The notes beneath the pieces are model-generated. The model was not told the DNA's origin, made no database searches, and saw only the letters and a list, made by a program, of their open reading frames with translations. Position numbers and translations under genes: made by a program. Positions 30,341-60,103 of a DNA stretch of 64,000 bases are shown piece by piece (the first letter of the stretch is position 1; every line of letters starts with the position of its first letter). Source of the stretch: Paracoccaceae bacterium (GTDB lineage Bacteria > Pseudomonadota > Alphaproteobacteria > Rhodobacterales > Rhodobacteraceae); NCBI GenBank assembly GCA_020446815.1, contig JAGRDY010000026.1, positions 310,001-374,000 on the forward strand, written 5' to 3'.

Positions 30341-32470
30341 TCATTTCCGGGCCGCACGGATCAGCGCCAGGATATCCCTGGCCGCCGCCGGGATGTTGGT
30401 GCCCGGCCCGAAGATCGCCTTCACCCCGTTCTTGTAGAGAAAATCGTAATCCTGCTGCGGGATGACGCCGCCGCAGATGACCAGAATGTCACCCGCCCCG
30501 GCGGCATTCAGCGCCTCGACCAGCTTTGGCGCCAGCGTCTTGTGCCCTGCCGCCTGGCTCGAAATGCCGATCACATGCACATCGTTGTCGATGGCGTCCC
30601 GCGCGGCCTCCTCCGGGGTCTGGAACAGCGGGCCCACATCGACATCAAAGCCGATATCGGCAAAGGCCGTGGCAATCACCTTGGCGCCCCGGTCATGCCC
30701 GTCCTGCCCCATCTTGACCACCAGCATCCGCGGGCGGCGGCCCTCTTGCTCGGCGAAGGCCTCCACATCCTTCTGGATCGCGGCAAAGCCTGCATCGCCC
30801 TCATAAGCCGCGCCGTAGACCCCGGCCAGGGTCTTTATCTCGGCCCGATGACGGCCGAACACCTTTTCCATCGCCATTGAAATCTCTCCTACGCTCGCGC
30901 GGGCCCGCGCCGCCGTCACCGCGGCCTCAAGCAGATTGCCGCCTTTTTCGGCCCGCCGGGTGAGTTCGGCCAAAGCCGCCTCGCAGGCCGTGCGATCGCG
31001 CGTTGCACGAATTCGTTCGAGACGCGCGACCTGCGCCTCGCGCACCTTGACGTTGTCCACATCGAGAATGTCGATCGGATCCTGCTTGTCGAGGCGGTAC
31101 TTGTTGACGCCGACAACCACCTCTTCGCCCCGATCAATCATCGCCTGCCGCCGCGCGGCGCTTTCCTCGATCCTGAGCTTGGGCATGCCGGAGGCCACCG
31201 CCTTGGTCATGCCGCCCATTTGCTCGACTTCCTCGATCAGCGCCCAGGCCTTTTCGGCCAGTTCCGCCGTCAGGCTTTCGACGTAATAAGAGCCCGCGAG
31301 CGGGTCGACGACATGGGTTATTCCGGTTTCCTCCTGCAATATCAATTGGGTATTTCTTGCAATGCGCGCAGAGAATTCGGTCGGCAGTGCCATCGCCTCA
31401 TCCAGCGCATTGGTGTGCAGCGACTGCGTACCGCCAAGAGCTGCCGACATTGCCTCATATGCAGTACGGATCACATTGTTGTAGGGGTCTTGTTCCTGCA
31501 AGCTTACCCCCGAGGTCTGGCAATGGGTGCGCAGCATCAGGCTGCCCGCCTTTTTGGCCCCGAAGCCGGTCATGATCCGGTGCCAGAGCAGGCGCGCCGC
31601 CCGCAATTTCGCAGCTTCCATGAAAAAATTCATGCCGATCGCGAAAAAGAACGACAGCCGTCCGGCAAAGGCATCCACATCCATGCCGCGTGCGATCGCG
31701 GTGCGGACATATTCGCGCCCGTCGGCCAGCGTATAGGCGAGTTCCTGCACCAGGTTCGCCCCCGCCTCCTGCATATGATAGCCCGAGATCGAGATCGAGT
31801 TGAACCTGGGCATTTCGGCGCTGGTATATTCGATGATGTCGGCGACGATCCGCATCGAGGCCTCGGGCGGGTAGACATAGGTGTTACGGACCATGAACTC
31901 TTTCAAGATGTCATTCTGAATGGTGCCCGACAGATCGGCGCGCGCCACGCCCTGTTCTTCGCCCGCGACGATGAAACTGGCCAGAACCGGAATGACCGCG
32001 CCGTTCATCGTCATGGAAACACTGATCCGTTCAAGCGGAATGCCATCGAAGAGAATTTTCATGTCCTCGACGGAATCTATCGCCACCCCGGCCTTGCCGA
32101 CATCACCGACGACGCGGGGATGATCGCTGTCATAGCCCCGGTGCGTGGCCAGATCGAAGGCGACCGAAACGCCCTGCTGGCCGGCGGCCAGGTTCTTGCG
32201 GTAAAAGGCGTTCGATTCCTCGGCCGTCGAAAAGCCTGCGTATTGACGGATGGTCCAGGGGCGGCCGGCATACATGGTGGCCCGCACCCCACGGGTAAAG
32301 GGGGCAAGCCCCGGCGGCGTATCCAAATGGCCCAGCGCCGCAGTGTCATCGGCCGTATAGAGCGGTTTGACACGGATGCCTTCCAGCGTGTTCCATGCCA
32401 GATCGTCCTCGCTCCGGCCCTTGGTTTCCTTTTGCACCAATGCAGCCCACGCTGCCTTTTTTTCCGTCAT
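30341..32470 (-). CDS. mcm: Methylmalonyl-CoA mutase
   Basis: A 709-residue single-subunit, adenosylcobalamin-dependent mutase that interconverts (R)-methylmalonyl-CoA and succinyl-CoA. The catalytic TIM barrel covers residues 1-560 with [22 protein letters not shown]; the C-terminal B12 domain carries the base-off motif D-x-H-x-x-G (DGHDRGAK, His near 592). Alternative mutases for ethylmalonyl-CoA or isobutyryl-CoA are related, but position in a pcc locus supports methylmalonyl-CoA. I chose ATG 32470 (AAGGAAG upstream) over a TTG two codons earlier. It is the final step of propionyl-CoA assimilation. Confidence 0.9.
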
Positions 32471-45240: not shown

Positions 45241-46890
45241 TCAGCGTTGCGTCTCGCGCCAACGCGGACTGACCCACGGCTCCAGGTTGGAGGGGGCGAG
45301 CATCCCCCGGCCCAGAATGTGATCGGCGGCCTTTTCGCCCACCATGATCGACGGGCCGTTGAGATTGCCGTTGGTGATCCGCGGAAAGACCGAACTGTCG
45401 GCCAGCCGCAAGCCATCGACCCCGATCACCCGGCACTCGGGGTCAACCACGGCCATTGTGTCATCGCGCCGGCCCATCCGCGCCGTCCCGCAGGGATGAT
45501 AGGCGCTTTCGGCATGCTCGCGGATGAAGGCGTCGATCTCGCCGTCGCTCTGGATTGACGCGCCAGGCTGAATCTCGTGTTTCACATAGGGTTTGAACGC
45601 CTCCTGCCCGAACACTTCGCGAGTCAGCCGGATGCAGTTGCGAAAATCCGACCAGTCATCGGGATGCGACATGTAGTTGAAACGGATCGCCGGGTCTGCC
45701 TTGGGGTCCGCCGACCGCAATGTCACCGCCCCGCGCGATTTCGACCGCATCGGCCCGACATGGGCCTGAAATCCGTGCCCTTCGGCGGCCGCTCTGCCAT
45801 CGTAACGCACGGCGATAGGCAGAAAATGATACTGGATATCCGGGTATTCCACCCCCTTGGCCGAACGGATGAATGCACAGCTTTCAAACTGGTTCGACGC
45901 CCCGAGCCCGCCTTTCGTCAATAGCCACTGCGCCCCGACCCAGCCCTTGCCCCAGAAATTCCAGTATTTGAACAGGGTTATCGGCAGGAGCGAGGCGAAC
46001 TGCATGTAGATTTCCAGATGGTCCTGCAAATTCGCGCCGACTCCGGGCCGGTCGGCGACCACCGCGATCGCGTGTTCGGCCAGATGCGCCGCCGAACCGA
46101 TTCCCGACAACATCAGAAGCTTGGGCGAATTGATGGCCGAGGCCGCGAGAATCACCTCGCTGCGCGCGGAAATCACTTCGATCCCGCCGCCGCGCTCCAC
46201 CTCGACCCCTGTGGCGCGCCCCTCTTCGATCACCACACGCCGCGCCAGCGCGCGCACCAGCGTGCAGTTCTTTCGCTTCAACGCAGGGCGCAGATAGGCA
46301 TTGGCCGCAGACCAGCGCCGCCCGCGCCAGATCGTCGCCTCCATCGGGCCGAAACCTTCCTGCTTGCGGCCATTGTAATCGGCCGTCACCTCATACCCGG
46401 CCTGCCTTCCGGCCTCGACGAAGGCATGAAACAGCGGGTTGCGCCGCGGACCGCGTGAAATGTGCAAGGGCCCGCTTGACCCCCGGAAATCGCCGGCCTC
46501 GCCGCCGTGCCAGGTTTCCATGCGCCGGTAATAGGGCAGCACATCGGCATAGGCCCAGCCATCCGCCCCCGAATCGGCCCAATGGTCGAAATCCCTTGCA
46601 TGCCCGCGTACAAAGACCATGCCGTTGATCGAGGAAGACCCCCCGATCACCTTGCCGCGCGGCGTGGCCAGCCTGCGCCCGCCCAGATTCGGTTCGGGCT
46701 CCGACCTCAGGCCCCAGTCGTAAAGTGGCATGTTCATCGGAAAGGACAACGCCCCGGGCATCTGGATGAAGGGCCCCGCATCGGTGCCGCCGAATTCGAT
46801 GACGATGACGCTTCTGCCCGCCTCCGACAGCCGGTAGGCCATGGCGCATCCTGCCGATCCGGCCCCGACGATCACATAGTCCGCCTGCAT
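45241..46890 (-). CDS. betA: Choline dehydrogenase (GMC family)
   Basis: A 549-residue FAD enzyme that oxidises choline to betaine aldehyde and can go on to glycine betaine. N-terminal dinucleotide motif [21 protein letters not shown] signature [19 protein letters not shown]-type segment (GGSSSINGM); catalytic region [11 protein letters not shown]-terminal [27 protein letters not shown] with the active-site Asn. Length matches BetA (about 550). It is 83 bases downstream of betI on the same strand. The usual betaine aldehyde dehydrogenase gene betB is not next to it. Confidence 0.92.
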
Positions 46891-48188: not shown

Positions 48189-48797
48189 TCAGCCGTCAGG
48201 GCCGAGGCGTGCGGTCAAGAATGCGGTGCAGGCCGCCCGTGCGTCACTGCCGCTGAGACCGCCGGGGTCGAGGCTGCGCTCCAGCCAGAGCCCGTCGACA
48301 AGCGCTATCAGGGTAACCGCAAGCGCCTCGGCATCCACATGACGGCTCCGCGACCGCGCGGCGATATCAATCACGCGGGCCACGCTGGCGCGGTAGCGCG
48401 CGTAATACTCCCGATGCACCTTGATGAGTTCGGCATTGCCGCCAATCTCTCCCCAAAGCGCGAGCCAGGCCCGCAGCGCGCCAGGCTCGAACAGATCCTC
48501 GGACAAGACCGCATCCACCATTGAGTCAAGGTCGGTTGTGGCCTCTGTGGCAAGAACGCTGTCGAGCAATTGATTGTACATCTTGCGGTAGACCGCGACC
48601 AGCAGGCCGTCCTTCGAGCCGAAGTGATGCGTGATCAGCCCGCGTGACACATTGGCCTCCTCGGTGATCCGGTCGATCGTGAAGGCGAGCAGGCCACCAT
48701 GCTTGAGACAGGCCAACCCGGCAGCGATAAGCATTTCCCGTCGATCATCGGGTTTCAGGCGGCGGTACCGCGGGCCGCGTGCGGGGATCGAAGCCAT
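48189..48797 (-). CDS. TetR-family regulator, BetI-like
   Basis: A 202-residue TetR-type regulator. The HTH region is TIDRITEEANVSRGLITHHFGSKDGLLVAVYRKMY, close to BetI, and the later part carries a BetI-type C-terminal domain (AWLALWGEIGGNAELIKVHREYYARYRASV). It is downstream of the ABC transporter operon on the same strand after a 186-base gap, so it may be transcribed with it or separately. It is the most likely local regulator of the transporter and demethylation genes, by position. Confidence 0.8.
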   Translation of the reverse strand: MASIPARGPRYRRLKPDDRREMLIAAGLACLKHGGLLAFTIDRITEEANVSRGLITHHFGSKDGLLVAVYRKMYNQLLDSVLATEATTDLDSMVDAVLSEDLFEPGALRAWLALWGEIGGNAELIKVHREYYARYRASVARVIDIAARSRSRHVDAEALAVTLIALVDGLWLERSLDPGGLSGSDARAACTAFLTARLGPDG

Positions 48798-48983
48798 GTG
48801 CTTTTATACCTCGAAACTTCGCTTTGTCGAACGTGGGTCGGGCAAGGCGGCCGCCGGTTACCGCGGCGGCCGCTCTGAGCTGTGGCGTCTCCGCAACACG
48901 CTGAAACGCCAAGACCCTGCCACATCCATGGTGCTCCCGGGCTTTTGGCGGCCCTTCATGGAGCAGGCATTTCCCGAAACGAC

Positions 48984-50534
48984 CTAGAGCTTTGTGAAGC
49001 GCGTCGGGTCGGGATGTCCGTCGGCCAAGATCACCGGCTTCAGGTCGGCCTTGTGCAGGGCGATGTAAGGGGTGAAGCAGATGAAGACAAAATCGCCCGA
49101 TTCCTCCATCAGGTCTTCCATCCGGTTGAACATCTCCTTGCGCTTGGCGTCGTCCGTTTCCAGTTGCACCTTGTGGTAGAGATCGGCGTACTCGGCGCTG
49201 TCGAAGAAACTCCAGTTATATACGCCGATCTGGTCAGGCAGGAACCACACCAGGTTTTCGGTGGGTTCGATGCCCCCGGCGAATGACATCAGCACCAGTT
49301 CGATAGATTTGTAGCCGTCTCCGGCTGTCTTGTCGCCGACCGACCAGTAGGCCGCTTCGTCGGTGGACTGGATGTTGATGGTGATTCCGGCTTCGGCGAG
49401 GCTGGCCTGAATGATCTGTGCCACCGTCTGTGAAGTGGAATCGTTCAACGCGATCAGCGTCAGGGTCAGGTTCTCCGCACCGGCTTCCTTCAGCAGTTCC
49501 CGCGCCTTTGCCACGTCGCGCTTGTCGATTATGTTCCTTGCCCGCGCGAAAGGCGATGTCGGCTGGATCACCCCGGCCGAACGCCCGACCGCACCGTCAT
49601 AGGCGCCTTCCAGCACCGCATCACTGTCATAGGCATACTGGATAGCCTGGCGCACACGCAGGTCTTTCAGCGGCTCGGCGTTCTGGTTGACTGTCAGCCA
49701 GGTATACGTCGTTGACGGCGCTTCGATGAGCGCGGCCCCCGCGGGCAGCGCATTCTTGATGCTGCGCAGGCCGCTCACCCCGATCCGGGTGAAGTCGAAG
49801 CTGTCGGCCTCGTAGGCCAGAAGCGCGGCCTGGTCGTCGGGCACGATGAAGAACTCGATGGTCTGGAATGCGACAGGCTCGCCCTTCCAGTCGGGGTTGG
49901 CCTTCAACGTCACCTTCTGGTTCTGCTCCCAGCTGTCGAAGAGATACGGCCCGCATTCGGCCGGGGCTTTGTTGGTGAAGCTGCCTCCGGCCGCCTCGAC
50001 CGCCTTCTGGCAGACCAGATGGCCCGCGTAATACGGCAAGGCGGTGATCATGAAGGGCGCATAGGCCTCTTTCAGGTGCAGGACGCCATTGCGGTCGTCG
50101 ATGATCTCGACATGGTCGAGCTGATCGAACTGATAGGCCCAGGCGCTGTCGGACCCGGCGATGCGTTCGAAGCTGTACTTGACGTCCGCCGTCGTGACCG
50201 GGCCAAAGCCGTTGGTCCATGTCAGGTTGTCACGCAGCGTGAAGGCGATCGTGGTGGGCGAGGCCCAGCCGATCTTCTCGGCGGCATAGTTGCTGAGCAG
50301 GTTGCCGTCGCGCATGTCGCCCACGCGAACCAGCGTGACGGTGGTGCAGCGCGGGATGATGTCGTCCAGTTCGCCTATCTCGCCAAAGGGGTCGATCACC
50401 TGGTAATCGCCCGCCATGCGGATTCGCAACGTGTCGCCCATTGCGGCCCATGCCATCTTGGGCCCGAGCGCGAGGGTTGCCACCGCGGCGCCCCCGGCTT
50501 TGAGCAGGCCGCGTCTGTCGGTTCTCCAGATCAT
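48984..50534 (-). CDS. ABC transporter substrate-binding protein, family 5
   Basis: A 516-residue peptide/nickel-type binding protein (SBP_bac_5). A twin-arginine-like signal, TDRRGLLKAGGAAVATLALG, precedes the mature domain, suggesting Tat export. Family marks include WTNGFGPVTTADVKYSFER and KDLRVRQAIQYAYDSDAV. It would capture the substrate for the adjacent permeases. GGAGAG precedes the ATG. Its start overlaps the ATPase gene by 4 bases, so it is the fifth transporter gene in the operon. Substrate unknown; the setting suggests a methylated amine conjugate or small peptide. Confidence 0.85.
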   Translation of the reverse strand: MIWRTDRRGLLKAGGAAVATLALGPKMAWAAMGDTLRIRMAGDYQVIDPFGEIGELDDIIPRCTTVTLVRVGDMRDGNLLSNYAAEKIGWASPTTIAFTLRDNLTWTNGFGPVTTADVKYSFERIAGSDSAWAYQFDQLDHVEIIDDRNGVLHLKEAYAPFMITALPYYAGHLVCQKAVEAAGGSFTNKAPAECGPYLFDSWEQNQKVTLKANPDWKGEPVAFQTIEFFIVPDDQAALLAYEADSFDFTRIGVSGLRSIKNALPAGAALIEAPSTTYTWLTVNQNAEPLKDLRVRQAIQYAYDSDAVLEGAYDGAVGRSAGVIQPTSPFARARNIIDKRDVAKARELLKEAGAENLTLTLIALNDSTSQTVAQIIQASLAEAGITINIQSTDEAAYWSVGDKTAGDGYKSIELVLMSFAGGIEPTENLVWFLPDQIGVYNWSFFDSAEYADLYHKVQLETDDAKRKEMFNRMEDLMEESGDFVFICFTPYIALHKADLKPVILADGHPDPTRFTKL

Positions 50535-51535
50535 GTCGTCTCTCCTTCTGTTGGTTGGTTGGGTTCATCTTCGGCGAAATGGCAGCGCACCTGCCAGCCC
50601 GGCGCGATGGCGCGCAGCGCCGGGGCCTCGGCGCGGCAGCGGTCGGTTGCGCGCGGGCAACGGGTGTGAAACTCGCAGCCCCGCGGGCGGTGCAGCAGGC
50701 TTGGAATGTCACCCTTGACCGCGAGATCAGTGCGCCGGCGGCGCGGATCGGGGTGGGGCTCGGCGGCGATCAGGCTGGCAGTGTAGGGGTGCCGGGGGCG
50801 GGCGAAGACCTGCGCGGTCGGGCCTGATTCCACCATTCGGCCCAAGTACATGATGGCGATCCGGTCAGTGACGTGGCGGACCATCGCAAGGTTGTGGCTG
50901 ATGATCATGAAGCTGAGGTGCAGCCGGTCGCGAAGCCCGCTCATCAGGTTGAGCACCTCGCCCTGCACCGACACGTCCAGCCCCGCCGTCGGTTCGTCAG
51001 CCAGGACCAGACGGGGCGTCAGCGCCAGCGCGCGCGCCACACAGACCCGCCGCGCCTGACCGCCCGACAACTCGTGCGGGAAACGCTCGGCGATGGTGGC
51101 GGGCAGGCCCACGGTTTCAAGCAACGAGCGTGCCCTTTCGCGGCGGATGCCAATCGGTTCGCGATGAATGATGAAAGGTTCGGTCACCAGCGCGCCTATC
51201 CGCATCCGCGGACTGAGCGAAGCGACCGGATCCTGGAACATCAGTGCGGTCTGGCGGCGCAGAGCCGCGTAACTGTCGCGGCTGCCCAGGGGGTGCCCCT
51301 CGAAACGCATGACGCCCCCGGAGACGGGCAGCAGCCCCAGCATGGCGCGTGCCAGTGTGGTCTTGCCAGAACCGCTTTCGCCGACCAGCCCGAGACTTTC
51401 GCCCGCGGCGATCGACAGGGTGATGTCCGAAAGGATATTCAGCCGACGCGGGGCCTTGCCGATCAACTGCGGCCACAGCGTGCCTTCCTGCGGCAGGTCC
51501 ACCTGCAGCCCCTCCATCTCGAAGACCGCGGTCAT
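50531..51535 (-). CDS. Peptide-type ABC transporter ATPase (DppF-like)
   Basis: A 334-residue ATPase. Walker A GESGSGKT, signature LSGGQARR, and Walker B LVLADEPTAGLDVS are complete; the C-terminal Cys-rich oligopeptide/dipeptide extension (CEFHTRCPRATDRCRAEAP) is typical of peptide transporters. It pairs with the other ATPase as a heterodimer. The ATG at 51535 overlaps the end of the upstream ATPase by 4 bases. Confidence 0.87.
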   Translation of the reverse strand: MTAVFEMEGLQVDLPQEGTLWPQLIGKAPRRLNILSDITLSIAAGESLGLVGESGSGKTTLARAMLGLLPVSGGVMRFEGHPLGSRDSYAALRRQTALMFQDPVASLSPRMRIGALVTEPFIIHREPIGIRRERARSLLETVGLPATIAERFPHELSGGQARRVCVARALALTPRLVLADEPTAGLDVSVQGEVLNLMSGLRDRLHLSFMIISHNLAMVRHVTDRIAIMYLGRMVESGPTAQVFARPRHPYTASLIAAEPHPDPRRRRTDLAVKGDIPSLLHRPRGCEFHTRCPRATDRCRAEAPALRAIAPGWQVRCHFAEDEPNQPTEGETT

Positions 51536-52497
51536 GACACCACCTTGTGACAAAGCGCCGTCTGCTGGGCCGAGACGCGCACGCGCGGAGGAGGCTTGCT
51601 GTGGCAGGTGCCGTCGGCCAACGGACAGCGCGGCGCGAATCCGCAGCCCGGCGGCGGCGCGGTAAGGTCGGGTGGGCGGCCGGGAATGGTCGGCAGCACG
51701 CCCTGCCCGGCACCGAGCGCACCGGGGTCGCAGGCAATCAGCGCCTGGGTGTAGGGGTGGCGCGGCGCGTGATAGAGGTCGTCGACCGGCGCTTCTTCCA
51801 CCACCTGGCCCGCATACATCACATAGACGCGGTCGCACAGTTCGCCGATCACGCCGAGATGGTGGGTGACGATCACGATGGCGCCGTTGATTTCGGTCCG
51901 CAGCGAGCGCAACATGTGGATGATCTGCGCCTCCATGGTGACATCCAGCGCGGTCGTAGGCTCGTCGGCGACAAGCAGCGCGGGATTTGCCATCAGCGCC
52001 GCCGCGACGGCGACGCGCTGGCGCATGCCGCCTGACAATTCGTGCGGATAGCGGCGCAGGCAGATCTCGGCGTCGGCGATGCCGACCTTGCGCAACATGT
52101 CGGCGGCTCGGGCGCGCCTGGCCGCACGCGACAGGCCGGAATGCTGCTGAAAGTCGACGATCTGGTCCCCCATGGTCAGCACCGGGCTGAAGGCGGTCAT
52201 CGGATCCTGGGAGATCATCGCGATATCATGTCCGCGCAGCTTGCGGCGCTCCGCCTCGGGCAGGGACAGTATGTCGCGGCCGTTCAATCGCACCTCGCCC
52301 GTGCCGACAGTGGCATTCGTCTCGAGAAGGGCGATCAGGGCTGCGGCGAGGGTGGACTTGCCGCAGCCGCTTTCGCCCACGATGCCGATCACCTCCCCCG
52401 CTTCGGCCATCAGGCTGACGCCGCGAAGCGCGTTCACGTCACCGCCCTCGGCCCGGTAGGTCACCGACAGTTCCGCAACCTCCAAAAGCGCGCTCAT
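51532..52497 (-). CDS. Peptide-type ABC transporter ATPase (DppD-like)
   Basis: A 321-residue ATPase. Walker A is GESGCGKST, the signature LSGGMRQR, and Walker B LLVADEPTTALDVT; the C-terminus has a Cys-containing extension (GCGFAPRCPLADGTC) like the partner. The start MSALLEVAELSVTYRAEGG at 52497 is the family's normal one. It overlaps the permease gene by 4 bases and the second ATPase by 4 bases, so the operon is tightly coupled. Confidence 0.87.
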   Translation of the reverse strand: MSALLEVAELSVTYRAEGGDVNALRGVSLMAEAGEVIGIVGESGCGKSTLAAALIALLETNATVGTGEVRLNGRDILSLPEAERRKLRGHDIAMISQDPMTAFSPVLTMGDQIVDFQQHSGLSRAARRARAADMLRKVGIADAEICLRRYPHELSGGMRQRVAVAAALMANPALLVADEPTTALDVTMEAQIIHMLRSLRTEINGAIVIVTHHLGVIGELCDRVYVMYAGQVVEEAPVDDLYHAPRHPYTQALIACDPGALGAGQGVLPTIPGRPPDLTAPPPGCGFAPRCPLADGTCHSKPPPRVRVSAQQTALCHKVVS

Positions 52498-53381
52498 CGT
52501 GCAACCCGCAGCTTGAGCTTCGGGTCGAGCGCGTCGCGCAATCCTTCGCCAAGAAAAGTGAACCCGAGCGTGCAAAGGATCAGAGGGATGCCGCCCGCGA
52601 TCACCATGTATGGGGCCGACCGCAGCGAGGTGTAACCGTCATAAAGGATATTGCCCCAGGATGGCGTGGGCGGTCCGACGCCAAGGTTGAGGTAGCTCAG
52701 CCCGGCCTCGAGCATGATGACCACCGGAATGTCCATGCTGAGCAGGATCACCAGCGGACCCACCACGTTGGGCAGCAGGTGGTAAAGGATGATCCGCGCC
52801 GAAGACGCGCCGATGGTGCGTTCGGCCTGGATGTAGTCGGCCCCCTTGAGCGCCAGCGTCTGGGCCCGAATCAGCCGGCCATAGCCCGGCACCGAAACCA
52901 GCACGATGACGATGATCAGGGTTGTGATTCCCGGTCCCAGCACGGTGATCACGGCCAGCGCGAACATGATCATTGGCAGCGAGGAAAAGCTGTCGAAGAA
53001 CAACACCAGCACTGCGTCGAGCCATCGCGGCCCGAAACCCGCGACAAGGCCCAGAAGCAAGCCCAGGGCGCCCGCGATGCCGGTGGCCGTCATCGAGATG
53101 CCCAGAGCCACGCGGGCGCCCCAGATCAGCCGGGACAGCATGTCGCGGCCCAGTTGATCGGTTCCCGCCCAATGGGCAAGGCTGGGCGGCTGGAACTTGT
53201 GGCGAACGTCGATCTGGATCGGGTCATAGGGAGCCAGCAGCGGGGCGAAGATAGCCAGCAGGATGAAGCCGACGACGAGAACAGCGCCGGTCATGCCCAT
53301 CGGATCGCGCATTAGCTGGGCCAGCGCGCCTCGGCCGCGCGGGGGCAGGTTCTCGACCGTCTGCTCAACCGCGCAGGACAT
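52494..53381 (-). CDS. Peptide-type ABC transporter permease (DppC-like)
   Basis: A 295-residue inner-membrane permease with about six helices. The first helix (GMTGAVLVVGFILLAIFAPLLAPYDP) and the GTDQLGRDMLSRLIWGARVALGI segment are the hallmark of the DppC/OppC group; the EAA coupling loop is near SSARIILYHLLPNVVGPL. It overlaps the other permease by 17 bases. Confidence 0.87.
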   Translation of the reverse strand: MSCAVEQTVENLPPRGRGALAQLMRDPMGMTGAVLVVGFILLAIFAPLLAPYDPIQIDVRHKFQPPSLAHWAGTDQLGRDMLSRLIWGARVALGISMTATGIAGALGLLLGLVAGFGPRWLDAVLVLFFDSFSSLPMIMFALAVITVLGPGITTLIIVIVLVSVPGYGRLIRAQTLALKGADYIQAERTIGASSARIILYHLLPNVVGPLVILLSMDIPVVIMLEAGLSYLNLGVGPPTPSWGNILYDGYTSLRSAPYMVIAGGIPLILCTLGFTFLGEGLRDALDPKLKLRVAR

Positions 53382-54315
53382 CGCGAACCCTCGGATCCAG
53401 CCGCGCGATCAGCAGGTCCGCGGCAGTGACAACGAAAAGGTAGAAGGCGGTCATGAACAGGACAGTGCCCATCACGACCGGATAGTTGCGCTTTTCCACC
53501 GCCCCGGTGATCAGCGTGCCGATGCCTGGACGGGAAAATACCGTTTCCACGAAGACGGCGCTTGACAGGATCGAGCCCGCGCCGATGGCGATAATGGCGA
53601 TGGTCGGCACGATGGCGATGCGCAAGGCGTATTTCAGCACCACCACGGTTTCCGGCAGGCCGAAGGCGCGCGCGGTGCGAATATGGTTGGCGCCCATCAC
53701 TTCGAGCATCGAGGCTCGTACGAGCCGCGCGATATAGCCGACCCAGCTGACGCCGATGGCGAAGGAAGGCAGGATCAGCGCCCGCGCCTGGCTGCCCCAG
53801 TCGCCGCTTTGCCCTGCTCCGATGGCCGGCAGCCAGCCCAGCCATACCGCGAAGATCAGCAGCGAATAGAGCGCGATCACGAAGGAAGGGACCGCGATCA
53901 TGCTGACCGACAGCACCCCCAGCAGCCGGTCGATGAAGGTGCCGCGCCAGATTACCGCAAGGCAGCCCAGCCCGATCCCCAGAACTACCGCCCAGCACAG
54001 CGAAACGGCGCCGAGCAGCAGGGTTTTCGGAAACACCTCCAGGATCACGTCAAGCACCGGGCGTTTCGACCAGACGTCGATGCCCAGATCGCCGGTGGCC
54101 GCGGCGCGAAAGAAGTGCCAGATTTGGTTCGGCAGCGATTGATCCAGCCCCATCCGCTGGATCAGCAGCGCCTTGAGCTCCGGTGTCGCCCGCGGCCCCA
54201 GCGCGATCGAGGCGGGATCGCCCGGGATCACATAGACCATCGCGAACATGCCCAGCATCACCACCACCAGGATCAGCAGCGCCAGCGCGACCCGCTTGAT
54301 GGAATAGCCTAGCAT
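53365..54315 (-). CDS. Peptide-type ABC transporter permease (DppB-like)
   Basis: A 316-residue permease of the DppB/OppB group: N-terminal helix RVALALLILVVVMLGMFAMVYVIPGDP, the IQRMGLDQSLPNQIWHFF-type insertion, and the RASMLEVMGANHIRTARAFG coupling loop. It is the first transporter gene after the hydrolase, with a 9-base gap, so hydrolase and transporter are very likely one transcript. Confidence 0.87.
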   Translation of the reverse strand: MLGYSIKRVALALLILVVVMLGMFAMVYVIPGDPASIALGPRATPELKALLIQRMGLDQSLPNQIWHFFRAAATGDLGIDVWSKRPVLDVILEVFPKTLLLGAVSLCWAVVLGIGLGCLAVIWRGTFIDRLLGVLSVSMIAVPSFVIALYSLLIFAVWLGWLPAIGAGQSGDWGSQARALILPSFAIGVSWVGYIARLVRASMLEVMGANHIRTARAFGLPETVVVLKYALRIAIVPTIAIIAIGAGSILSSAVFVETVFSRPGIGTLITGAVEKRNYPVVMGTVLFMTAFYLFVVTAADLLIARLDPRVRDVLRG

Positions 54316-54324
54316 CCGGTGGCC

Positions 54325-56340
54325 TCAGACCATGTCACGCGGAATCCTTTCGTGCCAGGACCGCGCGAAGACCTGCTTGCCGTCCTCGTGCAGCACAAGA
54401 TCCATATCGATGGTGAAATGCGTGGCATCGCAGGACATCGACCCCGAGGACCGATGTGTGATCGTGGCGTCGGGGCGGCGGATCTCGACCTTGTTTTCGG
54501 TGACCACCCTGGCGCTGAGCGGGTCGCCGTCGGTAATCTCGTAGCGCGCCATCCCGGTCGAGGCATGGGTCTGGGAAATGTCGGGCATCTCCTTGACGTA
54601 GGTCCAGCGCGGAAAATCCACTGTCATCTTGCCGGTCAGCAGGTCGTGCATCACGCGGCGCGGGTGCAATGTGGGGGCGGGGTGACTGGTCGATGGGGTG
54701 TTGTGGGCTACCTCGGGCGGATCGAATTCGCGTAGCGTGACATCTTCGGCCCGTGGAGGGCGCACGGGCAGCACGAGTCGTGAGGCGCCGAGAGCGACGG
54801 AAAGCGTGGCCAGCTCGGGCGAAGGCCAGGCGATTGGCCAATATGTGGTCGATAGTGACACCGAGATGCGATGACCGGCCGGAAATCGGTGGGCAATATC
54901 GTCCATCTCCACCGTGGCGGTATAGGCCTTGCCGGGCTCCAGTGCGGTAGCGTGTTCGTGGCTGTCGCGGTGAGTCAGGTTCAGCAGGCCGATACCCACA
55001 CGGCTGGAGCGCCCGTCAGCCATCACGTCGTTAAGCCGAGCCGCAACGAGCGCCTGCGGCTTATCGGAGGAGAAGGTCAATTCGACCAGCGGCGCGCCGA
55101 GAATCTCGACCGCCTCGGGCAGCGGCTCCGAGACGAAGACGAGGCTGCCGCCGTCATCCGCGCGCTGGTCGCCCGGCCATTCGGCATCTCCGCCATAGCG
55201 GCCAATCTCGCCCGCGCCCGCGCCCACCCAGAGCGGCGAGCAGATCGAGATCCGGCCCTTGCCCGGAGCGCCTCCGAGTGCGCCATGGGGGTTCAGCGGC
55301 ATCCGCCGCATCTCGATCCGGGGGCTTGGCCAGCAGTCCTCGCCTACCCAGCGACCGGGGCGTTCGAGGTAGCAGGTCTGGGGTGGTACGCTGTCCTGCA
55401 TCCAGACGCGGTACATCGGTTCGTCCATGATGCCGGTCGCGCGCCCCTTCATCCAGTGATCGCACCAGCGCAGCACCTCTTGCAGCCAGCCGATTTCTGG
55501 CTTGACCGCCGCGTCGCACGGGTAGGAATGCGCCCAGGGTCCAATCAGCCCCAGCCGTGGCCCCGACAGCCCGGCCAGCAGACGCGGCACGCTTTCGGAG
55601 TAATTATCGGCCCAGCCCGAGACTGCGTAGACCGGAATGGTGATCCTCGAGAAATCCTCGCAGACCGAGCCCTGTTTCCAGTAGTCGTCGCGGCGTTGGT
55701 GGCGCATCCAGTGGATGATCCAGGGATATTGGTGATTCATCCGCGCCTGCCACATCTCGCGCCAACGCTCGCCCACGATGGCGGGGTCGGGGGGCAGGTC
55801 GTTATGGGCCATCATTGTCGCGGCCCAGTCGAAGTTATCCTTCGAAAGGCAGCCGCCGACCCAGTGGATATCGGTTGCATAACGGTCGTCGGCGGAACCC
55901 ACGGTGATGACGGTGCTAAGTGCTGCCGGCCGGCGCGCGGCGATTTGCAGGCCGTTGAAGCCACCCCAGCTGATGCCGATCATCGAAACCTGCCCGTCGC
56001 ACCATTCCTGCGCGGCGATCCAGGCGATGGCCTCGACCCCGTCAAGCTGCTCCTGCACGGTATATTCGTCGTCGATCAGCCCGTCGCTGTCACCGCTTCC
56101 CCGGATGTCCAGCCGCAAACAGACATAGCCATGCCCGGCCAGATACATGTGCATTCCCTGGTCGCGTGTACGCGTGCCGTCGCGCTTACGATAAGGAATG
56201 TACTCCAGAATCGCCGGAAAACGCCCCGGTGCATCGGGCTTCCATACCTTGGCTGCCAGGCGGGTGCCGTCGTCAAGCGGAATGAAGATGTTCTCGACGA
56301 CCTTCACCTTGTGGGGGAGCGCCGTCCGGGTGGTGGGCAT
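54325..56340 (-). CDS. CocE/NonD-type alpha/beta hydrolase
   Basis: A 671-residue hydrolase of the CocE/NonD (X-Pro dipeptidyl-peptidase S15) class. The N-terminal alpha/beta-hydrolase half has the nucleophile elbow G-I-S124-W-G-G; the C-terminal half is the beta-rich jelly-roll of this class. Members act as esterases or amidases on esters, N-acyl amino acids or X-Pro peptides. The ATG at 56340 starts MPTTRTALPHKVKVVENIF. It heads the hydrolase-transporter operon; by context it may release a methylated amine from a conjugate after uptake, which is inference. Confidence 0.75.
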   Translation of the reverse strand: MPTTRTALPHKVKVVENIFIPLDDGTRLAAKVWKPDAPGRFPAILEYIPYRKRDGTRTRDQGMHMYLAGHGYVCLRLDIRGSGDSDGLIDDEYTVQEQLDGVEAIAWIAAQEWCDGQVSMIGISWGGFNGLQIAARRPAALSTVITVGSADDRYATDIHWVGGCLSKDNFDWAATMMAHNDLPPDPAIVGERWREMWQARMNHQYPWIIHWMRHQRRDDYWKQGSVCEDFSRITIPVYAVSGWADNYSESVPRLLAGLSGPRLGLIGPWAHSYPCDAAVKPEIGWLQEVLRWCDHWMKGRATGIMDEPMYRVWMQDSVPPQTCYLERPGRWVGEDCWPSPRIEMRRMPLNPHGALGGAPGKGRISICSPLWVGAGAGEIGRYGGDAEWPGDQRADDGGSLVFVSEPLPEAVEILGAPLVELTFSSDKPQALVAARLNDVMADGRSSRVGIGLLNLTHRDSHEHATALEPGKAYTATVEMDDIAHRFPAGHRISVSLSTTYWPIAWPSPELATLSVALGASRLVLPVRPPRAEDVTLREFDPPEVAHNTPSTSHPAPTLHPRRVMHDLLTGKMTVDFPRWTYVKEMPDISQTHASTGMARYEITDGDPLSARVVTENKVEIRRPDATITHRSSGSMSCDATHFTIDMDLVLHEDGKQVFARSWHERIPRDMV

Positions 56341-56501
56341 GGCTTGAACTCCTGCTTGCTGAACGATCATACAACTAAAGATTTTCACTTCGCAACAAGT
56401 AATCGCCAGCAGGCGAGACGAGCACATGCCTGCATGCCTGACCATGCTTGACCGGGCGCTTCCCCTTACTTACAATACGATTGTTCAATAAGGACCTGGC
56501 C
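56341..56501. promoter_or_regulatory. Divergent promoter region with paired TGAAC elements
   Basis: Two related elements in inverted orientation face each other: CTGAACGATCATACAA at 56359-56374 (plus strand) and, read on the minus strand, TTGAACAATCGTATTG at 56488-56473. The second contains the short palindrome ACAAT-ACG-ATTGT (56472-56484). They stand near the two divergent start regions and are plausible operators for the nearby TetR-family regulator. Confidence 0.45.
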
Positions 56502-58589
56502 ATGCCCCGCAATCGCCGTTACGACGTTTTGTTCGAACCAGTTCGGATTGGACCGAAAGTGGCGAAGAACCGCTTTTACCAGGTGCCGCATGCCAGCGGC
56601 ATGACAAACGCCGCGCCGCATGCCCGCGCGGCCTTTCGCGGCATGAAGGCCGAGGGCGGCTGGGGCGTGGTCTGCACCGGGGCCTGTTCGGTCGCCCCAT
56701 CCTCGGACGATTCGCCATTCCCATTTGCCACAATGTGGGATGAGACCGATGTACGCAGCCACGCGCTGATGACCGAGGCCGTGCATGCCCACGGCGCGCT
56801 GGCGGGGGTCGAGCTGTGGCATGGCGGCGCCGCGGCCGTGAACCGGACCAGCCGGGTGGCGCCGCTCTCGCCTTCGGGGGTGCCGTGGATGGCCACACAT
56901 GTGGGCTTCATGTCGGCGCAGCGGCCAAAGGTGATGGATGCGCATGACATCCGCGACCTGATCCGCTGGCACGCCGACGCGGCCGTGATGGCCGAACGCG
57001 CGGGCTTTGACATTCTTTATGTATATGCCGGCATGGGCTATCTGCCCTACCAGTTCCTGCTGAGCGACTACAACAAGCGCACAGATGCATATGGCGGATC
57101 GGTCGCCAACCGGGTGCGGCTGGTGGCCGAGCTGATCGACGCTGTCCGCGAGGCGACACATGGCCGCTGTGCCGTGGCGCTGCGCATTTCGATGCAGGAG
57201 TTGCGTGCCCGCCACTCGGAGGTGGCCGAAAGCGAGGGGCACGAGGTGGTGGGGCTGCTCAGGGACGCGCCCGACCTCTTCGACGTCAAGATGGACTATT
57301 CCGCCTATGATTGCTCGCCTTCTCGGTTCACCGCCGAGGGCACCCACGAACCGGTGATCTCCTTCATGAAGCAAGTGACCGACCGGCCGGTGGTGGGCGT
57401 CGGCCGTTTCACCTCGCCCGACACGATGGCGGGGATGGTGCGGCGCGGGGTTCTGGACCTGATCGGCGGCGCGCGCCCCTCTATCGCCGATCCGTTTTTA
57501 CCAGCCAAAATCGACGAGGGCCGCGAGGAGGATATTCGCGAATGCATCGGCTGCAACATCTGCATTTCCAGCTGGCATGACGGCGTCTGGGTGCGCTGTA
57601 CGCAAAACCCCACGGCGGGCGAGGAATGGCGGCGTCGCTGGCATCCCGAAGTTGTTGCGCGCGATGGCAAGGGTCAGACCCTTGTGGTCGGCGGCGGACC
57701 GGCGGGGCTGGAGGCGGCGCTGACGCTGGCTCGGCGCGGTCATGACGTGGTCCTGGCCGAAGCCGCGTCCGAATTCGGCGGAAGGCTTCTTTACGAAACG
57801 GCTTTGCCGGGGCTCAGGCAATGGGGCCGGGTGGCCGATTACCGGCTGGGTCAGTTGCGCAAGCTGCCCAACGTCTCGCTTTACACCGAAAGCCGCTTGG
57901 ACGCGGACGCGGTGCGCGATTTTGGCGCGGCCGAGGTCGTCATCGCCACAGGGGCGCGCTGGATGGCCAGCCTGTGCGGCGCAAACGAGCTGCCCACCAG
58001 CCCGCTGGACGCGCCACGCGTCTACACGCCCGACGATCTGGCCGCGGGGGTAGTGCCCGAGGGGCCCGTCGCGGTGTTCGATTTCGACAATTACTACCTT
58101 GGCTCGGCGGTGGCCGAAGCACTGGCCGGGGCGCTGGGCGGGGTGCTGGGCGGGGGCGGGGCGCAAATCACTTACATCACTACCGCCGGCACCGCCGGCG
58201 CCTGGGCCTTCATGACCAACGAACAGCCGGGAATCAATGCCGCGCTTGCCGCGCGGGGGGTTGCCGTGCGCACACTGGAAATCGTCACCGGGTTCGACGG
58301 CGAGATGCTGAGCCTGGCACAGATCTTCAGCGGGGCACCCGCCCGGATCGCGGCGCGCAGCCTTGTCATCGTCGGCCAAAGGGCGGGTGGCAGCGCCCTT
58401 TACGACGCGCTTGCAGAGACGGTGCATGATTTCGGCGTGCATCTGACCGGTGATGCGCTGGCTCCTGGCGCCATCGCCCATGCGGTCTACCAGGCCCATC
58501 GCACCGCGCGCGAGGTGGGCAAGGACAAGGAGTTGCCGCGCCGCGATGCACCCTTCGCGATGCGCGACATCGCCCGGGCCGCGGAATGA
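56502..58589 (+). CDS. Trimethylamine dehydrogenase-like flavoprotein
   Basis: A 695-residue protein with the complete trimethylamine dehydrogenase layout: FMN TIM barrel (residues 1-345; YDVLFEPVRIGPK, NRFYQVPH, KAEGGWG), a [4Fe-4S] site Cys348-x2-Cys351-x2-Cys354-x11-Cys366, and C-terminal dinucleotide-binding domains (VVGGGPAGLEAALTLARRG from about 395). The Cys that binds FMN covalently in trimethylamine dehydrogenase, after NRFYQVPH, is Ala31 here. Relatives demethylate di- or trimethylated amines such as dimethylglycine or N-methylproline. The end overlaps the MttB gene by 4 bases. Confidence 0.8.
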   Translation: MPRNRRYDVLFEPVRIGPKVAKNRFYQVPHASGMTNAAPHARAAFRGMKAEGGWGVVCTGACSVAPSSDDSPFPFATMWDETDVRSHALMTEAVHAHGALAGVELWHGGAAAVNRTSRVAPLSPSGVPWMATHVGFMSAQRPKVMDAHDIRDLIRWHADAAVMAERAGFDILYVYAGMGYLPYQFLLSDYNKRTDAYGGSVANRVRLVAELIDAVREATHGRCAVALRISMQELRARHSEVAESEGHEVVGLLRDAPDLFDVKMDYSAYDCSPSRFTAEGTHEPVISFMKQVTDRPVVGVGRFTSPDTMAGMVRRGVLDLIGGARPSIADPFLPAKIDEGREEDIRECIGCNICISSWHDGVWVRCTQNPTAGEEWRRRWHPEVVARDGKGQTLVVGGGPAGLEAALTLARRGHDVVLAEAASEFGGRLLYETALPGLRQWGRVADYRLGQLRKLPNVSLYTESRLDADAVRDFGAAEVVIATGARWMASLCGANELPTSPLDAPRVYTPDDLAAGVVPEGPVAVFDFDNYYLGSAVAEALAGALGGVLGGGGAQITYITTAGTAGAWAFMTNEQPGINAALAARGVAVRTLEIVTGFDGEMLSLAQIFSGAPARIAARSLVIVGQRAGGSALYDALAETVHDFGVHLTGDALAPGAIAHAVYQAHRTAREVGKDKELPRRDAPFAMRDIARAAE

Positions 58590-60103
58590 GCCGCCGCCCC
58601 GGCCGTCGTCCCGCCCGTGTTGCCGGTGAGCTGGCGCAGCCCGCCTTCCGGCAGGTCAGCCGCCCCTACGCGCCCGTCGAGGTTCTGAGTGCCGACCATG
58701 TCGCGGCGATTCATGAGGCCGCGCTGAGTGTTCTGGCCGAGATCGGGATGCGGGTGCTGCACGCCCCCGCGCGCGAGCTGTTGCGCGGCGCAGGTGCCAC
58801 GGTCCTGGAAGACATGGTGCGCCTTGACCCGGCGCTGGTGATGGAGCGGCTCAAGACCGTGCCGCCCTCCTTCACGCTGGAGGCGCGCAATCGGACGCAT
58901 GACCTGAAGCTTGGCGGGCGCGACCTGATCTTCGCCTCGGTGGGCGGCCCGGCCTATGTGATGGATGCCGACAAAGGCAAGCGCGACGGCACATTCGCCG
59001 AGATGTGCGATTACCTGAAAGTGGTCCAGCAACTGAACGTCCTGCATCAGGAGGGCGGCGGCCCGTTCGAGCCGATGGACCTGCCTGCCAATACCCGCCA
59101 CCTCGACATGTACCGCGCGCAGATCACGCTGCTGGACAAGAACTGGCAGACCCAAAGCCTGGGCCATGCCCGTACGATGGACGGGATCGAGATGGCGGCG
59201 ATCAGCCTGGGCACCACGCCCGAAGGGCTCTGCAACCGGCCGGTGCTTCTGGGTATCATCAACACCAATTCGCCGCTGCAGCTGGATGTGCCGATGGCTG
59301 AGGGGCTGATCGCGCTGGCGGGCCACGGGCAGGTTCTGGCGATCACGCCGTTCACGCTCGCCGGTGCCATGGCGCCGGTCACGCTCGCCGGAGCGCTGGT
59401 CCAGCAACATGCCGAAGCGCTGGCAGGTATCGTGCTGACCCAGATCGTGCGACCCGGCGTGCCGGTATTGTATGGCGGCTTCACGTCGAACGTCGACATG
59501 CGCACCGGCGCGCCGGCCTTCGGCACGCCGGAATACGCCAAGGCCGCACAGGCGAGCGGGCAGCTCGCGCGCCACATCGGTGTGCCGTTCCGGTCGTCCA
59601 ACGTGACAGCGGCCAACGCGGTGGACGCGCAGGCTGCCTATGAAAGCCAGATGTCGCTTTGGGGCGCGATGATGGGCGGCGCACATTTGCTCAATCACGC
59701 GGCCGGCTGGATGCATGGCGGGCTGACCGCCAGTTTCGAAAAGCTGATCCTCGACGCAGAGATGCTGGCGATGATGGCCGCCTATTTCGATCCGATCGCC
59801 GTGGAGCCCGCCGACCTCGCGATAGACGCGATCCGCGAGGTCGGGCCAGGCGGACATTTCTTTGGCACAGCCCATACAATGTGCCGGTACGAGACGGCAT
59901 TCCATATCCCGCTCCTGGCGAACAGGGACAACTACGGGCAGTGGCTGGAGTCTGGCGCGGTCACGGCCGAAGCCCGCGCGAATGCCATCTGGAAACAACT
60001 GCGGGCAGACTATGAGCAGCCCCCGCTGGACCCGTCCATCGCCGAGGCGCTCGATGCCTATGTCGCCCGCCGCAAACAAGAGGGCGGTGCCCCGATGAAC
60101 TGA
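58586..60103 (+). CDS. MttB-family (COG5598) methyltransferase, non-pyrrolysine
   Basis: A 505-residue member of the trimethylamine methyltransferase family PF06253. Family segments include YDADK-type KVGGP ending (FASVGGPAYVMDADKGKRDGT), LDMYRAQITLLDKNW and RPGVPVLYGGFTSNVDMRTGAPAFGTPE. The frame runs its full length with no in-frame UAG, so it lacks pyrrolysine and belongs with the homologues that demethylate glycine betaine, proline betaine or carnitine. Such enzymes normally need a corrinoid protein partner; none is seen within the window. It overlaps the flavoprotein gene by 4 bases, so the two are coupled. Confidence 0.78.
   Translation: MSRRPGRRPARVAGELAQPAFRQVSRPYAPVEVLSADHVAAIHEAALSVLAEIGMRVLHAPARELLRGAGATVLEDMVRLDPALVMERLKTVPPSFTLEARNRTHDLKLGGRDLIFASVGGPAYVMDADKGKRDGTFAEMCDYLKVVQQLNVLHQEGGGPFEPMDLPANTRHLDMYRAQITLLDKNWQTQSLGHARTMDGIEMAAISLGTTPEGLCNRPVLLGIINTNSPLQLDVPMAEGLIALAGHGQVLAITPFTLAGAMAPVTLAGALVQQHAEALAGIVLTQIVRPGVPVLYGGFTSNVDMRTGAPAFGTPEYAKAAQASGQLARHIGVPFRSSNVTAANAVDAQAAYESQMSLWGAMMGGAHLLNHAAGWMHGGLTASFEKLILDAEMLAMMAAYFDPIAVEPADLAIDAIREVGPGGHFFGTAHTMCRYETAFHIPLLANRDNYGQWLESGAVTAEARANAIWKQLRADYEQPPLDPSIAEALDAYVARRKQEGGAPMN

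Follow-up and report, generated by a model that had tools for sequence, protein, structure and literature searches.

In a 64-kb stretch of DNA from a Paracoccaceae bacterium (contig JAGRDY010000026.1, positions 310,001 to 374,000; hereafter the window), positions 48189-60103 hold nine genes in two divergent units that we read, at a probability of roughly one half, as one catabolic regulon under TetR control, serving a quaternary ammonium acid of the betaine type that arrives masked as an ester or amide. One unit encodes a CocE/NonD hydrolase, an oligopeptide-type ABC importer and a TetR-family regulator; the other encodes a flavoprotein related to trimethylamine dehydrogenase (TMADH) and a methyltransferase of the MttB family. 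That these genes belong together is indicated by their inheritance across genomes and by a shared operator, while the substrate class, the order of the steps and each reaction are what we infer from the protein families and their conserved residues.

Architecture of the locus

The nine genes were defined from open reading frames (ORFs) and family profile searches; positions are those of the window, and gene starts were inferred from sequence. The minus-strand unit reads downward from ∼56340 through CocE/NonD, OppB-type and OppC-type permeases, two oligopeptide-type ATPases, a family-5 substrate-binding protein (SBP) and TetR. The plus-strand unit runs from ∼56502 through the TMADH-like iron-sulfur flavoprotein to the MttB-family methyltransferase, the two joined by an ATGA overlap. 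Likely starts were corrected for CocE (56340), the flavoprotein (56502) and the OppD-type (52497) and OppF-type (51535) ATPases, and with these starts the divergent gap is ∼160 bp and several neighboring genes overlap by ATGA. The importer-CocE operon, the divergent flavoprotein and MttB genes and the TetR gene at the far end are all present in the order and orientation proposed by the initial annotation, and the family profiles fit. The features are as follows (pLDDT, predicted local distance difference test).

48189-48797, minus strand: TetR-family repressor with BetI-type C-terminal domain (Pfam TetR_N and TetR_C_6), final gene of the CocE-importer operon
48984-50534, minus strand: family-5 SBP with Tat-like signal (SBP_bac_5, 222 bits; model pLDDT 86.5)
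50531-51535, minus strand: oligopeptide-type ABC ATPase, OppF/DppF type (ABC_tran and oligo_HPY; open frame from 51838, with 51535 as likely start)
51532-52497, minus strand: oligopeptide-type ABC ATPase, OppD type (ABC_tran and oligo_HPY; ORF opens at 52575, likely start 52497)
52494-53381, minus strand: ABC permease, OppC type (BPD_transp_1 and OppC_N)
53365-54315, minus strand: ABC permease, OppB type (BPD_transp_1 and BPD_transp_1_N)
54325-56340, minus strand: CocE/NonD alpha/beta hydrolase with an additional C-terminal beta region (TIGR00976, 226.7 bits; model pLDDT 86.8)
56355-56378, no strand assigned: operator 1, CocE side, overlapping a TATGAT −10-like hexamer (matrix score 32.6; promoter-like site 56395-56366)
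56469-56492, no strand assigned: operator 2, flavoprotein side, overlapping a TACAAT −10-like hexamer (matrix score 28.3; promoter-like site 56448-56476)
56502-58589, plus strand: TMADH/histamine-dehydrogenase-like iron-sulfur flavoprotein, active-site type A (Oxidored_FMN, 231.4 bits; likely start 56502)
58586-60103, plus strand: non-pyrrolysine MttB-superfamily methyltransferase (PF06253, 628.7 bits)

The genes are inherited together

Two samples were compared, with loci labeled L and genomes labeled G. The first comprises the best-scoring 80 MttB relatives in named genomes, whose loci were scanned with the window proteins; it is not a random sample, and some of its stretches are short contigs. 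The second comprises 100 genomes of the window's own family, from 99 genera, and partly overlaps the first (G018/L014 and G085/L029).

At the ortholog thresholds used in the 100 genomes (E ≤ 1e-180 for MttB, E ≤ 1e-220 for CocE and at least 73% identity for the flavoprotein), the three enzymes have an identical distribution, occurring in the same 7 genomes. None of the remaining 93 has MttB or CocE at these thresholds, and 21 of them carry flavoprotein homologs that are at most 51% identical. The chance of identical 7/100 sets for one pair of genes is 6e-11 assuming independent genomes, which related genomes are not. In G034 CocE lies 131 kb away from the flavoprotein-MttB pair, so the co-occurrence does not rest on adjacency; there, the neighbors of CocE and TetR are an AstE/AspA-like deacylase and a family-5 importer distinct from that of the window. 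CocE and MttB stand on separate short contigs in G028, and in G068 TetR, CocE, the flavoprotein and MttB stay clustered, while the importer genes of the window are all missing from its 17-kb stretch.

Among the 80 relative loci, the flavoprotein is found in 48, CocE in 30, TetR in 27 and the SBP in 24, and the flavoprotein, CocE, both permeases and the SBP occur together in 22. These 22 span Rhodobacteraceae, Mesorhizobium and Rhizobium, with varying gene order and orientation. The flavoprotein accompanies CocE in all but one (L034) of the 30 CocE loci. Co-conservation, on which the initial annotation had made its idea depend, is therefore present both as the shared 7/100 distribution and as synteny in 22/80 loci, and the same two sets of counts rule out chance clustering of the genes.

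The whole nine-gene unit is also carried by a 169-kb plasmid of Fuscovulum ytuae (NZ_CP124537.1; L154), not far from a ParB-like gene, and on a Mesorhizobium plasmid CocE and MttB lie ∼6 kb apart; such plasmid-borne copies fit spread by transfer. Some neighborhoods vary the theme. In the clusters at L124 (2287-11461), L034, L036 and L037, CocE is accompanied by an AstE/AspA-like deacylase as well as by a family-5 importer of another kind, and on a Parasedimentitalea marina plasmid (L155) the neighbors of an MttB 63% identical to the window protein are subunits of sarcosine oxidase, a member of the Xaa-Pro peptidase family and an FAD oxidoreductase. Ten proteins from the flanks of CocE-less relatives shared no functional theme; among them were a beta-keto acid cleavage enzyme, a malate synthase and GNAT, histone-deacetylase-like and trypsin-like proteins. 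In the window itself, a GMC-family oxidoreductase lies past the TetR gene (45241-46890); it is not among the matches listed for the 80 relative loci.

A palindromic operator links the two units

A conserved 24-bp palindrome, with consensus CTTGTTGAACGATCGTTCAACAAG, lies upstream of the flavoprotein and of CocE where the latter is separately transcribed. Each of the two copies in the window overlaps the −10-like hexamer of one divergent promoter-like site. A pattern search allowing up to 3 mismatches found two matches only in the 3.47-Mb genome, at 56355-56378 and 56469-56492; over 15 whole genomes the pattern matched in 12, and control counts were 0 in all 15. In each of three Mesorhizobium genomes (G100-G102) the pattern likewise gave just two matches, one ahead of CocE and one ahead of the flavoprotein.

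Two operator-like sites (score > 13) are found in 18 of the 19 loci where CocE begins its own unit, L015 having one, and in none of the six loci where CocE comes after MttB in the same orientation does an operator lie directly upstream of CocE. As for the other five CocE loci, four cannot be judged, with the flavoprotein at the stretch edge (L049, L051, L053 and L058), and L080 is without sites. A matrix trained on such upstream sites scores the window operators at 32.6 and 28.3, with the best non-operator match in the window at 9.4. A second matrix, built from 23 sites in loci not labeled Rhodobacterales that were picked by the first matrix and so not fully independent of it, ranks the same two operators first and second in the 64 kb (29.5 and 22.7; next, 5.9). 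A single-strand fold of the intergenic gap was unremarkable (z = −0.85).

The operator is also associated with the regulator gene: it precedes the flavoprotein in 26/26 loci with TetR in the stretch and in 10/17 without (Fisher p = 6e-4), four of those ten being stretches under 14 kb. The best NCBIfam model for the TetR protein is BetI (TIGR03384), at 104.8 bits and below the cut-off of 201.3, which places it outside BetI proper. We suggest that this protein binds both palindromes, and it is probably autoregulated because its gene is the last of the CocE-importer operon. The gene set looks like one small regulon, and the earlier proposal of one functional unit is backed by co-occurrence, synteny and the common operator.

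Similar sites occur in front of other genes in two genomes. In Mesorhizobium soli (G103; L150 9283-10531), a similar palindrome precedes a Rieske oxygenase, with a second, weaker site 7 kb away. The best solved match of this oxygenase is carnitine monooxygenase, followed by 4qup and 3vca, and its best NCBIfam model is GbcA, below cut-off. A related repressor could explain both M. soli sites, and we treat the oxygenase as a lead only. A third operator in G104 (L149 16346-17697) precedes a porin-like 435-amino-acid protein with no family match at the thresholds used.

The hydrolase and the importer

The hydrolase belongs to the CocE/NonD family, scoring 226.7 bits on TIGR00976, whose cut-off is 66.3, with the catalytic serine, aspartate and histidine in place. 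Four residues, Y50, S124, D245 and H271 (numbered from the likely start), are invariant in 23/23 aligned sequences; they align with the active-site tyrosine, serine, aspartate and histidine of cocaine esterase. The modeled fold is closest to cocaine esterase (∼22% identity), then to an archaeal aminopeptidase and an alpha-amino acid ester hydrolase. For the SBP, the nearest solved relatives are AapF (7kz8) by sequence, and 5u4o followed by AapF by fold; its Tat-like signal reads TDRRGLLK in the window and TDRRxFLK in the consensus. The model folds of both proteins gave families and no ligand.

A second importer-CocE arrangement exists in the same genome (C17:98000-117500; L120 1-19501), where a paralogous family-5 importer (PermB 60% identical) is followed by two tandem CocE genes (42-44% identical). 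No MttB or flavoprotein gene was found in this 19.5-kb stretch.

A methyltransferase with a predicted carboxylate grip

PF06253 covers residues 4-501 of the methyltransferase (628.7 bits), placing it in the MttB superfamily, and its open frame has no internal stop and hence no amber-type pyrrolysine codon, as the initial annotation had stated. Its nearest solved relatives are 4yyc, a putative trimethylamine methyltransferase according to its depositors, and the glycine betaine enzyme MtgB (9yce/2qne). Docking as described in the available part of PMC6855144 predicts that MtgB contacts glycine betaine through Y94, N199, R309, H345 and F353, a numbering that we fitted to the solved MtgB chain. 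The window protein keeps N199, R309 and H345 and has glycine at Y94 and F353, and so departs from the full set of MtgB contacts.

The three polar residues are kept in 30/30 CocE loci and in 48/50 loci without CocE in the stretch examined, and glycine stands at F353 in 80/80 loci and in 4yyc. Glycine at Y94 is found in 30/30 CocE loci and 33/50 others. Three of the 10 paralogs read in the window's own genome, and likewise 4yyc, keep the tyrosine at Y94 along with N199, R309 and H345. From these alignments, the carboxylate grip seems to be kept in a roomier pocket, a combination that would mark a wider clade rather than the CocE loci alone.

Candidate corrinoid partners are encoded elsewhere in the genome. 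By sequence they make up an aerobic, split complement: on C32 a corrinoid protein resembling MtgC (192.6 bits for MtgC as its best NCBIfam model, below the cut-off of 370), an MtgD-like tetrahydrofolate methyltransferase on C21 (NF005719, 401.5 bits against a cut-off of 259) and the genome's one RACo-type (RACo/RamA) reactivase on C29 (RACo_C_ter, 287.7 against 27). No MetH-sized B12 protein was found, the genome's four B12-binding matches lying in open frames of 242, 293, 685 and 717 amino acids. A corrinoid protein beside MttB was considered and rejected, with none of these four matches at the locus; the one in the window (30383-30730) is 28 kb off in the mutase-sized 717-amino-acid frame, probably a methylmalonyl-CoA-mutase-like protein. 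The pterin-binding match on C17 was likewise set aside as the methyl acceptor enzyme, being a dihydropteroate synthase, and the C21 match was taken instead. As far as the available text of PMC12478193 describes it, the shared-corrinoid arrangement demonstrated in Ruegeria pomeroyi is matched by these putative partner genes in trans. The earlier assignment of MttB as a quaternary-amine demethylase is accordingly borne out in kind, by the retained predicted carboxylate contacts and by the accessory corrinoid machinery in the genome.

A TMADH-like flavoprotein with an altered active site

An OYE-type domain, an FAD/NAD-type domain and four cluster cysteines place the flavoprotein in the TMADH-like iron-sulfur superfamily, and phmmer matches it to 6l6j (the best solved match), 6de6, 3k30 and 1djn. 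In TMADH, C30 binds flavin mononucleotide covalently, Y60, W264 and W355 form an aromatic bowl, and Y169, H172 and D267 form a triad. Alignment with TMADH shows Y169, D267, W355 and the four cluster cysteines kept; C30 and Y60 have both become alanine, H172 is methionine and W264 is tyrosine. These replacements rule out a true trimethylamine dehydrogenase; of the initial description of the protein as trimethylamine-dehydrogenase-like, the overall family stands, while several TMADH hallmarks do not.

Among 43 relatives there are two active-site types: type A, with A60, M172 and W355 (19 sequences), and type B, with Y60, H172 and mostly N264 and N355 (24 sequences). Type B proteins are 46-50% identical to the window protein, and both types occupy the identical operon position. 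Closely related MttBs adjoin either type, as in Mesorhizobium soli compared with other Mesorhizobium, a pattern suggesting that the flavoprotein was swapped on more than one occasion next to a retained MttB. This comparison used an MttB tree of 90 rows made by a quick method, with open forks and one misframed row (L006); we used it only for the switching of flavoprotein types and for the kin of the window locus, which appear to be Rhodobacterales.

A model for the pathway and its alternatives

We propose a model in which the family-5 SBP and the Opp-type permeases and ATPases would import the conjugate, as their families suggest, and CocE/NonD, with its catalytic residues intact, would cleave it and free the carboxylate. 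MttB would then transfer a single N-methyl group to a corrinoid protein whose gene lies away from the locus, candidate partners being present in the genome; the MtgD-like enzyme would move the methyl group to tetrahydrofolate, and the RACo-type reactivase would keep the corrinoid reduced. The flavoprotein may next oxidize another N-methyl group on the resulting tertiary amine, with formaldehyde and a secondary amine as products. Until an inducer arrives, the repressor would occupy the operators over both −10-like hexamers. Hydrolysis is placed before demethylation because, in the available part of PMC12155760, the other known MttB-superfamily substrates bear a carboxylic acid group, and choline, to gain an acidic group, is phosphorylated first.

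In its fullest form, the model has a betaine ester or amide unmasked by CocE, MttB gripping the carboxylate, and a TMADH-like enzyme with interchangeable A60/M172/W355 and Y60/H172/N355 chemistries, all within one TetR regulon that spans Rhodobacterales and Hyphomicrobiales, is partly plasmid-borne and serves an aerobic pathway not previously described. We hold this version more tentatively, at somewhat less than even odds.

Several observations weigh against the betaine-conjugate regulon. The importer and CocE paralogs without MttB nearby suggest that the importer-CocE half is more general, so that the substrate of CocE is not necessarily an amine conjugate. The SBP ortholog is present in five of the seven genomes and missing from two, and 19 of the 48 flavoprotein loci are without CocE in the stretch examined, although some stretches are short and in L035 CocE lies further on. 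Neither the N199/R309/H345 anchors nor the glycine at F353 sets the CocE loci apart. Loss of H172, Y60 and W264 leaves the predicted N-demethylation uncertain, and none of the unit's genes was recognized as acting on the carbon skeleton. Three genomes that carry the genes, G093, G068 and G085, escaped the strict operator pattern; in them the matrix places weaker sites in the interval separating CocE from the flavoprotein (L125-L127).

The order of the reactions might be reversed within the same regulon, with MttB and the flavoprotein demethylating an intact conjugate, such as an N-methyl alkaloid ester, before CocE cleaves the product. Cocaine esterase, the nearest solved fold of CocE, cleaves the ester of an N-methyl alkaloid, and glycine at the Y94 and F353 positions of MtgB gives space for a large substrate. 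The retained N/R/H carboxylate contacts nonetheless favor a free acid, and 19 of the 48 flavoprotein loci show no CocE in the stretch examined; we consider this order unlikely.

We also doubt that the two halves act on different molecules, general peptide or ester scavenging and ordinary betaine demethylation, with a common regulator through the same plant or algal matter. The paralogous importer with its two CocE genes in a 19.5-kb stretch free of MttB would suit such a division, and for plasmid stretches of Paracoccus aminophilus and Mesorhizobium amorphae the PLSDB tables, which are incomplete, show CocE close to ABC genes and no MttB. Against it stand the identical distribution of the three enzymes, including the genome in which they are unlinked, and G068, which keeps the enzymes and TetR in a 17-kb stretch that has none of the importer genes of the window.

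Catabolism of plain glycine betaine, a choline ester or a carnitine ester, with glycine betaine or carnitine as the released acid and MttB as another MtgB, is improbable: the N/R/H residues and the distant resemblance of TetR to BetI, its closest NCBIfam model, would suit it, but glycine replaces Y94 here whereas 3 of the 10 own paralogs read and 4yyc retain the tyrosine together with N/R/H, and the genome has 11 other MttB homologs.

Aerobic genomes can hold many MttB genes (12 here, counting the window copy), compared with the six superfamily members with an identified substrate given in the available part of PMC12155760. The locus offers what looks like a small, clean regulon in which the transporter, the hydrolase and the demethylases are probably all devoted to a single compound or compound class, and its operator makes the question of the inducer directly testable. 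Naming the inducer would also show how masked quaternary amines feed MttB enzymes in soil and water.

Comparison with known systems

The gene combination was not found described in the open-access literature searched, judging by titles and abstract openings. Among the closest systems is the glycine betaine demethylation system MtgBCD(E) of Ruegeria pomeroyi (Mausz 2025, PMC12478193), where an aerobic alphaproteobacterial MttB-family enzyme is likewise accompanied by a RamA-type reactivase and by corrinoid and pterin partners whose genes lie at other loci. Uptake there is by a predicted BCCT transporter and the main text names neither CocE nor a hydrolase, whereas the window locus brings an importer, a hydrolase and a TetR operator of its own. 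The choline system MthB/C/A/K of Eubacterium limosum (PMC12155760) likewise pairs an MttB-family enzyme with a preparatory enzyme supplying an acidic group. This enzyme is a kinase-like protein in E. limosum and, if our model is right, a carboxylate-freeing hydrolase in the window; E. limosum is a gut acetogen, and the available part of its account has no family-5 importer or TMADH-like flavoprotein.

Compared with single enzymes, the flavoprotein shares with TMADH and histamine dehydrogenase the overall family, the four cluster cysteines, Y169, D267 and W355, and differs at C30, Y60, H172 and W264. The window CocE has in common with cocaine esterase the fold, the catalytic serine, aspartate and histidine and the oxyanion tyrosine; it differs in sequence (∼22% identity), in its extra C-terminal beta region and in its place in an ABC-importer operon. 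Proline iminopeptidase is a peptidase of the alpha/beta-hydrolase class. In the Pip/Aap system (PMC10134790, as far as available), AapF belongs to a family-5 importer of an ethanolamine-derived amide and lies beside such a peptidase, a parallel to the window rather than proof; that system has a LuxR-type regulator and a PIP-type rather than CocE-type hydrolase, and the available text names no methyltransferase. Every protein family of the window locus is known, and we regard their combination as a new form of quaternary amine catabolism of the MttB type.

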